DNA of 37,516 nt, taken from Cryomorphaceae bacterium (GTDB taxonomy: Bacteria > Bacteroidota > Bacteroidia > Flavobacteriales > Schleiferiaceae). Shown here piece after piece: positions 6,545-28,027 of this stretch (positions within the stretch are counted from its first letter, which is position 1; the number at the start of each line of letters is the position of its first letter). Both the position numbers and the translations under genes were made by a program. A model generated the notes under the pieces. It did no database searches and had not been told where the DNA came from. It saw only the letters and a list, made by a program, of their open reading frames with translations. The DNA is taken from the NCBI GenBank assembly GCA_003566715.1, contig PXCF01000053.1:1-37516 (forward strand), read 5' to 3'.

Positions 6545-6573
6545 AAAACCGGCCATTTGGCCGGTTTTTTTTT
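6545..6573 (+). terminator. Rho-independent terminator after lipoprotein paralog 1
   Basis: AACCGGCC, loop ATTT, GGCCGGTT (8-bp stem), followed by a run of nine T. Very similar to the hairpin after paralog 3. Confidence 0.9.
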
Positions 6574-8670: not shown

Positions 8671-8703
8671 AAAAAAACCGGCCAATTGGCCGGTTTTTTT
8701 TTT
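8671..8703. terminator. Bidirectional terminator between paralog 3 and the Omp85-like gene
   Basis: A perfect palindrome AAAACCGGCC-AATT-GGCCGGTTTT flanked by an A-run on the left and a T-run on the right, between two convergent genes, so it can serve both strands. Confidence 0.9.
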
Positions 8704-14280: not shown

Positions 14281-14346
14281 ATTGGAAAACCGCCCTAAGT
14301 AATATTTAATCATAACTCAACTTAAAAAACCACTGTGGCTGAGAAA

Positions 14347-14465
14347 GAAAGTTTGAGAGCAAGGCTTGCAAACCCCGATAGCTATCGGGATAAAATCAGG
14401 GCGTTTACATTAGTAAATGACTAAATTTTGGACTAAGCATAACGCAGCTATCGGACTTTATAGAC
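14347..14465 (+). repeat. Dispersed structured repeat, copy A
   Basis: About 119 bases that recur in reverse orientation at 27840-27941. Inside are the perfect palindromes GCAAGGCTTGC and CCCGATAGCTATCGGG, the inverted pair TTTAC...GTAAA, and the word GCATAACGCAGCTATCG. It contains about 14 extra bases (CTAAATTTTGGACT) that copy B lacks. No ORF is inside. It sits between divergent genes, upstream of the homogentisate dioxygenase gene. It has the size and shape of a small non-autonomous or REP-like element. Confidence 0.8.
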
Positions 14466-14517
14466 AACCACAAATTTAAAATATGACCATCATCATTAAA
14501 TCCCAAATCTAAATTCG

Positions 14518-18456: not shown

Positions 18457-18533
<77 letters not shown>

Positions 18534-26487: not shown

Positions 26488-27831
26488 ATGAAAATATCTC
26501 AGCGCCAATTAAATGAGCTACACGACGTCATCAGTGTAGAAATTGAGAAAAGTGACTATCAGCCAAAAGTAGAGGAAAAATTGCGCGACTATCGCAAAAA
26601 GGCCAGCATTCCAGGATTCCGTCCGGGCAAAGTACCCATCGGCCTAATTCGCAAACAATACGAAAAACCGTTGATGTATGAAGAAGTCAACGCCCTACTC
26701 AGCACGGAAGTCAACAAGTATATTGGCGAAAAGAAAATCAATATCATCGGTTATCCCGTACCTGTACCCAACGACAACATCGACTGGGAAAAAGACGAAT
26801 CCATGACCTTTGAATTTGAAATTGGTATTGAGCCGGAAATAAAAGTTGATCTTGCCGCTATTAAAGGACTGACCAAAGCAGAAATCGAGATGGACGACAA
26901 AACCCTCGATGAAGAAGTAGAAAACTTTGCTCGTCGTTTTGGCAGCATGGAAGATATCGAAGTGGCCGAAAGAGAAGATTTTCTCCAAGGGAAATACATA
27001 CAAGCCGACAACAAAGGAAACCCTGTTGAAGGCGAAGATCGTCTGGAAAAAGAGGGCTCACTTCCTCTGCGCGCCCTCACCGATAAAGCCGCCAAAAACT
27101 GGACAGGCAAAAAAGCCGGTGACCATGGCGTTCTCAATTTAGACAAAGACATCAAAGAAGGATTCAACGAAGCTTCCGTTACCGGTTTTGACCAAGGTGA
27201 CCTTGATGAAGCACGTACTTTTGCATTTGAAATTGAAAAAGTCAGTCGCTTAAAACCAGCCGAACTCAACAAAGAGTTGTTTGACAAAGCTTTTGGTGAA
27301 GGTGAGGTATCTTCAGAAGAAGAACTCCGCAACCGCTTGGGCGAGCAACTCAAAGCCGAGTTTAGCAAGCAATCAAGCCAATACCTCTTCAATCAGGTTT
27401 ACGAAAAACTGATGGAGATGGACATCACCATGCCCGAAAAATTCCTTCAGCGATGGCTGAGTACATCCGGTGAAGAGCCTATGAGCGAAAAAGAAGCCGA
27501 AGAGCAAATGCCATCGGTTCTTCCCGCCATCAAATGGCAATTCATCCGCGACAGCATTCTTCGCGAGCACGAAGTGATGATTGACGAAGCTTCCATTATG
27601 ACCGCCATGAAAGAACGCCTCCGCAGTCAGTTCCAACTTCCAGGTGGCGCCGATGATATGGACGAAATCCTCAACGGAATTGCCAAACAAGCTCTAGACA
27701 ACGAAGAGCAAAGACAACGCATCGTAGACGAATTGATGATTGGTCACCTAACCAGTATTTTTGATGAAAAGGTGAAGGCCAAGAGCAAGAAGATGAGTTG
27801 GGATAAGTTTATAAAAGAAGCATCAAAATAA
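26488..27831 (+). CDS. tig: Trigger factor (ribosome-associated chaperone)
   Basis: A 447-residue protein. The N-terminal ribosome-binding domain contains IPGFRPGKVPIGLIRK (about residues 36-52), the signature loop GFRxGxxP that touches ribosomal protein uL23. The middle PPIase-like domain (about 150-240) is degenerate compared with the Escherichia coli form, as is usual in Bacteroidota, and the C-terminal part is helical and charged. It folds new chains at the ribosome exit. The order tig-clpP-clpX that follows is the classic proteostasis cluster. Confidence 0.93.
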   Translation: MKISQRQLNELHDVISVEIEKSDYQPKVEEKLRDYRKKASIPGFRPGKVPIGLIRKQYEKPLMYEEVNALLSTEVNKYIGEKKINIIGYPVPVPNDNIDWEKDESMTFEFEIGIEPEIKVDLAAIKGLTKAEIEMDDKTLDEEVENFARRFGSMEDIEVAEREDFLQGKYIQADNKGNPVEGEDRLEKEGSLPLRALTDKAAKNWTGKKAGDHGVLNLDKDIKEGFNEASVTGFDQGDLDEARTFAFEIEKVSRLKPAELNKELFDKAFGEGEVSSEEELRNRLGEQLKAEFSKQSSQYLFNQVYEKLMEMDITMPEKFLQRWLSTSGEEPMSEKEAEEQMPSVLPAIKWQFIRDSILREHEVMIDEASIMTAMKERLRSQFQLPGGADDMDEILNGIAKQALDNEEQRQRIVDELMIGHLTSIFDEKVKAKSKKMSWDKFIKEASK

Positions 27832-27839
27832 AAGTGCCA

Positions 27840-27941
27840 GTCTATAAAGTTCGATAGCTGCGTTATGCTCATTTACTCTACGTAAACTCTGCTTTTTATC
27901 CCGATAGCTATCGGGACCGCAAGCCTTGCTCTTGAACTTTC
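27840..27941 (-). repeat. Dispersed structured repeat, copy B
   Basis: About 102 bases, the reverse complement of the repeat at 14347-14465. The words GCATAACGCAGCTATCG, CCCGATAGCTATCGGG and GAGCAAGGCTTGC are identical in both. The ends carry a short inverted repeat AAAGTTC...GAACTTT. The insert of about 14 bases in copy A is missing. It lies between tig and clpP. Confidence 0.8.
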
Positions 27942-28027
27942 TAGTCCAGTTACTTGGATTTATTGGCAGACTTTAATTTTACCTGTCAATTAAATCTAAA
28001 CAAAGGGGCAAATTGTATTGCGTCCCC

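Follow-up and report, generated by a model that had tools for sequence, protein, structure and literature searches.

A previously undescribed family of non-coding, hairpin-forming mini-transposons in a genus of Cryomorphaceae

Related mobile and palindromic repeats

Prokaryotic MITEs, including ERIC, the Correia elements and RUP, are short intergenic sequences that are non-coding, carry terminal inverted repeats and lack a transposase of their own; their direct repeats wane with age, they form stable hairpins, and some of these units lie at gene 3' ends (PMC10969869). The family described here shares these features. Judged by the descriptions of ERIC, the Correia elements and RUP, it is set apart from such MITEs through its TANNTA target, its covarying stems, the lack of any Rfam, phage, plasmid or viral-contig match, and two left ends, one a transposition end and the other a structural arm, against a single right end. 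Another MITE from Bacteroidota, carrying a minisatellite, belongs to Porphyromonas gingivalis (PMC4596501), and what it shares with the present family is being a MITE of this phylum.

REP sequences are palindromes of 20-40 bp tagged with GTAG or CGTC, the GTAG type being tied to Y1 transposases (PMC3733652). The present elements resemble such tagged palindromes in the alternative complementary residues of their stems, in their intergenic location near gene ends and in having the hairpin as the conserved feature, but differ from them in a length of 150-170 bp with terminal inverted repeats and a target-site duplication.

Two copies in the window

The window, referring to the whole stretch of 37,516 nucleotides analysed from contig PXCF01000053.1, contains two copies of the element in opposite orientations, which an earlier note had placed at 14347-14465 on the plus strand (copy A) and 27840-27941 on the minus strand (copy B). 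Both were found at these positions with the sequence blocks that the note had quoted; the full-length alignment gave 76% identity, a search against the whole genome scored copy B against copy A with 77 bits (E=1.9e-15), and likeness by chance is excluded. The limits were too narrow as a full unit, since both ends had been missed: copy A covers about 14334-14474, and copy B covers about 27831-27954 with a decayed outer end reaching to about 27977.

Alignment with other copies placed the hairpin body of copy A, from TGTGGCT to the right end, at 14334-14474 (+), preceded by a decayed outer left end at about 14312-14333 (+). The body is built, on the plus strand throughout, from a terminal stem with the left arm GAAAGTTTGAGAGC plus GCAAGGCTTGC (14347-14369), the optional hairpin P1 CCCGATAGCTATCGGG (14374-14389), which is missing in many aligned copies, the central stem P2 with the conserved core GTTTAC-ATTA-GTAAATGA (14390-14434), and the right arm AGCATAACGCAGCTATCGGACTTTATAGAC (14436-14465). 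The copy is flanked by divergent genes encoding an ABC transporter and a homogentisate dioxygenase-like protein.

The hairpin body of copy B (27831-27954, minus strand) lies between tig and clpP, directly after the trigger factor gene, whose TAA stop (27829-27831) its right end abuts, and ahead of clpP and clpX. Its decayed outer left end (ATTAAAGTCTGCCAATAAATCC) is located at 27955-27977 (-), the optional hairpin P1 at 27900-27915 (-), and the central core GTTTAC-GTAGA-GTAAA at 27869-27889 (-), with the 3' arm of the stem deleted. At this point GTAAATGAGC runs directly into ATAACG, where other copies have the arm and a second TGAGC, and the arm was probably lost by deletion between the TGAGC repeats. 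The two copies differ in length because of this loss, so the extra bases that had been noticed inside copy A are largely a deletion in copy B instead. The matching ends AAAGTTC/GAACTTT reported for copy B are present, but the terminal stem to which they belong is imperfect and extends further. Both copies are decayed, without a clear duplication, and represent two old members of the MITE-like family, with old and young judged from decay rather than from a species tree.

Two near-identical palindromes AAAACCGGCCATTTGGCCGGTTTTTTTTT at 6545-6573 and 8674-8702 of the window look like ordinary intrinsic terminators. A tRNA gene is present at 18457-18530 (+), and copies elsewhere (L004, L011 and L019) also adjoin tRNA genes.

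Anatomy of the element

A complete copy measures about 150-170 bp. In the aligned copies, TAGAGCCTGTCCATAAAGTC as the outer left end is followed after a few bases by the body, made up of AGTGGCTnnnCTAGAAAGTTCGAGAGCAAGGCTTGCG, the inner part and GAGCATAACGCAGCTATCGGACTTTATAGACAGCCAC. The hairpin body ends in GACTTTATAGACAGCCAC, the terminal inverted repeats are TAGAGCCTGTCCATAAAGTC and GACTTTATAGACAGCCACTA, and a target-site duplication of 5-6 bp with the pattern TANNTA flanks the complete element. The body folds as a long imperfect hairpin, with a mean z of about -5 to -6 in 30 copies relative to dinucleotide-shuffled sequences. The inner part typically contains GGAGTTTAC-N4-GTAAATGA at the stem tip, and the arms that carry it vary among copies yet remain complementary, as exemplified by GCAGCGCCTGAAG/CTTCAGGCGCTGC in L202.

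Two side hairpins are optional, namely P1 CCCCGATAGCTATCGGGG on the 5' side, which is the palindrome spotted in the earlier note, and P3 GCCCTAAAACCTTCGGTAAGGGC on the 3' side, which occurs in several copies of the genome G002. CCCGATAGCTATCGGG was rejected as the defining repeat, since it is an optional module: seven of its nine exact sites in the genome fall within copies of the element, and the remaining two lie in tRNA-Asn-like remnants. The latter two remnants are arranged in tandem (L237) and carry the P1 palindrome at G000:C19:157-172 and 575-590, outside recognisable copies, which gives it the look of a hairpin that is mobile in its own right.

GTAG-type REP-like hairpins (GTAGGGGTTAGC..GCTAACCC) were observed at L030, L055, L098, L029 and L262, some of them exactly replacing the inner hairpin of the element; in L030, L055 and L098 such a hairpin makes up the inner part. 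Bacteroidetes are not among the phyla listed with GTAG repeats (PMC3733652). Isolated right ends (ATACTTTATRGACAGACACTA) were also seen directly upstream of intact copies, in L114 around 6633 (G002:C49) and in L197 around 390 (G003:C143), and are possibly remnants from a copy inserting beside an older one.

Size and distribution of the family

In total, about 40 recognisable copies or remnants, nearly 30 of them close to complete, were counted by sequence searches in the own genome of the window (G000; 2.46 Mb in 153 contigs), giving a short, non-coding, multi-copy and dispersed element as in other MITEs. The earlier note had named tens of intergenic copies as support for a mobile or REP-type element and, as circumstances that would speak against its reading, only two copies in the genome and none in relatives, neither of which was found. 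The family was present in all five genomes of the genus (G000-G004), and few copies were carried by 2 of 55 further genomes of the family or order, each in another genus; it was absent in 53 of the 60 genomes of relatives. When 84,980 genomes were scanned with an exact pattern, every match fell in a MAG whose title names Cryomorphaceae or Flavobacteriales, while the phage, plasmid and viral-contig collections searched contained no match to the family, and no carriage by phages or plasmids was seen. The open literature yielded no paper describing this mini-transposon family, which is a previously undescribed family of non-coding, hairpin-forming mini-transposons of a Cryomorphaceae genus.

Transposition and target sites

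The target-site duplication was examined in the 54 copies that retain a recognisable outer left end. Hexamers flanking both ends matched at 262 of 324 positions, compared with 216.7 +- 4.5 after permutation (z=10, 0 of 5000 permutations), with TAATTA, TATTTA, TACTTA, TAAGTA and TAACTA as typical hexamers. The signal was present in G002 and not detectable in G000, G001 and G004. An alternative left boundary at AGTGGCT with a duplication of its own was considered for the decayed genomes and gave no signal.

Copy A is missing in the sister genome G001, where the two flanks directly adjoin and some 187 bp present in G000 are lacking, although the decay of the copy leaves no base-exact junction. 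Copy B is missing from the same gene spacer in G001, G002 and G004. The spacer of G001 at this site is 57 nt long and contains a possible right-end remnant (TAGTAGCCGTCAATAAA), so copy B may have been lost in G001 rather than gained in G000, which counts against transposition as the best explanation.

The copy number, the duplication statistics and the missing copy A at the orthologous place bear out the suggestion of a dispersed, non-coding, intergenic element mobilised in trans, whereas the linked transposase that had been looked for alongside it was not found. Loci of PF01609 and PF01797 in these draft genomes showed no matching element ends and no autonomous partner among them, and a search for a partner by end patterns returned none, the lone ends being degenerate copies. 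The parent element of a MITE is often missing.

The earlier note had also offered a REP-like sequence as an alternative. Intergenic palindromes, the importance of the hairpin, the better folding of the plus strand and the GTAG-type hairpins inside some copies (L030, L055, L098) would suit a REP/BIME-type repeat that a Y1 (RAYT) transposase moves in single-stranded DNA form. Such a repeat is very improbable here, as it is already contradicted by the TANNTA target duplication, and the copies have long terminal inverted repeats, carry no GTAG/CGTC tag at their ends and reside in genomes (G000, G001 and G004) without any hit to the Y1 transposase family PF01797. Integron attC-like recombination sites, which are likewise imperfect folded sites whose ends are conserved and whose inner hairpin varies, are more improbable still, because the copies are scattered singly between conserved chromosomal genes with target duplications instead of forming an array behind an integrase, and no R-box signature was seen. 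Both readings were rejected on the target duplication and the context.

Dispersed intergenic copies, terminal inverted repeats, a target duplication in the less decayed copies, the missing copy A in the sister genome, a covarying hairpin body and a preference of the right end for gene 3' ends make a MITE-like, non-autonomous DNA transposon family the probable identity of these elements. The mobilising enzyme would be a DDE-type transposase encoded elsewhere, with the outer left end TAGAGCCTGTCCATAAAGTC and the right end GACTTTATAGACAGCCACTA as its recognition sites. It would have placed the element into TANNTA sites, often with overlap of a stop codon, the ends of the element bringing a stop of their own there and the host gene surviving. 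Both outer end and duplication would subsequently decay, leaving a still foldable body composed of the terminal stem, the optional side hairpins P1 and P3 and the central stem around GGAGTTTAC-N4-GTAAATGA. Its fold may be kept either because the cell uses the folded RNA or single-stranded DNA, or because the copies convert one another.

Placement at gene 3' ends

Simple ORF calls around 97 distinct copies put the right end within 15 nt of the stop codon of a neighbouring gene in 51 copies, compared with 15 copies for the left end (p=1e-5). As both ends offer stops in all frames, the element itself partly accounts for ORFs that end there, but not for the asymmetry between right and left. For L008, the element-free relative G004 has a stop at the same codon. 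The right-to-left asymmetry amounted to 20:1 in the decayed genomes versus 29:13 (p=0.02). Genes whose stop abuts the right end transcribe the minus strand, which is the less well-folding one, and selection against a strong fold inside mRNAs is one reading of the placement, a 3'-end function being another.

Maintenance of the fold

Pairing within the body covaries strongly. In the terminal stem (inner left with right), Watson-Crick cells outnumbered those of shuffled partners by 96 with a z of about 14-15, compared with -4.6 to 1.2 when the partners were slid by 1-5 columns. The central stem reached a z of 16, its slid controls falling between -4.2 and 0.7 except for 6.4 at slide -1, which was attributed to single-base indels. 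The outer left end paired with the right end gave a z of 0.8 and hence no covariation. In 43 copies from G000, G001 and G004, outer pairs had fallen to 63%, while inner pairs still stood at 91% (z 11.3); likewise, identity of the outer end to the consensus was 0.57 in G000 versus 0.87 in G002, whereas that of the inner arm and frame was 0.88 in both.

Non-canonical pairs of the core were conserved as G.T in 76, A.G in 79 and G.A in 74 of 80 copies, which were found by a pattern fixing part of this core. The covariation exceeds the slid controls, yet the variable arms of the central stem show no excess of G.T over A.C (33:34). The plus strand folds better than the minus strand in 90 of 99 copies, with averages of -46.8 and -39.9 kcal/mol, respectively. 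Scanning ten loci against Rfam returned only tRNAs at gathering level and nothing inside the element at E<=1, the one sub-threshold snoRNA-type hit being located outside it.

One explanation is that the host took up former MITEs as an RNA element, protecting mRNA 3' ends, serving as an RNase processing site or acting as an intercistronic regulator, with purifying selection on the stems. Conservation of the body during decay of the outer end and duplication points in this direction, as does the central stem of L019 and L046, a same-site pair from G000 and G001, which differ by three paired changes and zero unpaired ones. Conserved non-canonical pairs that are all G.A or G.T on the better-folding plus strand, and the one-sided placement at gene 3' ends that is stronger in the decayed set, are also in keeping with it. 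Such uptake is nevertheless somewhat unlikely, as the stop-abutting genes transcribe the other strand, the excess of G.T over A.C expected from RNA-level selection on one strand is lacking, copies are freely gained, lost and remodelled, and Rfam holds no match.

Comparison of copies at the same site showed exchange of the inner part while the element stays in place. L005 (G000) and L098 (G004) agree almost completely in the frame but carry different inner hairpins, that of L098 being the GTAG-type hairpin, and L048 (G004) and L260 (G000) differ by P1 and P3. In L028 and L253 the element lies in opposite orientations (local score 148 flipped versus 55.5 unflipped), which would have arisen by inversion or by separate insertion; the pair was not accepted as proof of inversion in place, since other copies resemble L028 more closely than L253 does. 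Exchange of the inner part would fit recombination or conversion between copies.

These differences, together with the equal counts of G.T and A.C that suit a process at the DNA level, favour a second explanation, by which the elements have no host function and are kept alike through ectopic gene conversion and arm-to-arm template switching in an imperfect palindrome, with decay visible only outside the converted tract. It is a possible account to be held tentatively, because conversion would be expected to make the central stem uniform too, whereas most copies differ in this stem against a likeness of about 88% in the frame, and arm-to-arm copying does not explain the conserved non-canonical core GGAGTTTAC/GTAAATGA.

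Implications for the family

The elements form a new MITE family whose mobility is well supported and whose covarying hairpin body is unusually well kept. In a further reading, the transposition end and the structural body would be separate, and after the loss of mobility the hairpin body would have been kept as an RNA (or single-stranded DNA) element of the host, in a single orientation at the 3' ends of genes and with side hairpins that can be exchanged freely. Such a MITE family on its way to a structured regulatory element is an unlikely reading. The family adds a distinct mini-transposon to a poorly studied group and provides a natural series from less decayed insertions with duplications in G002 to decayed ones in G000, in which the transposition end is gone and the fold is kept. 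Along this series it can be asked whether selection or concerted evolution is the keeper of transposon hairpins, and whether such elements become signals at mRNA 3' ends.
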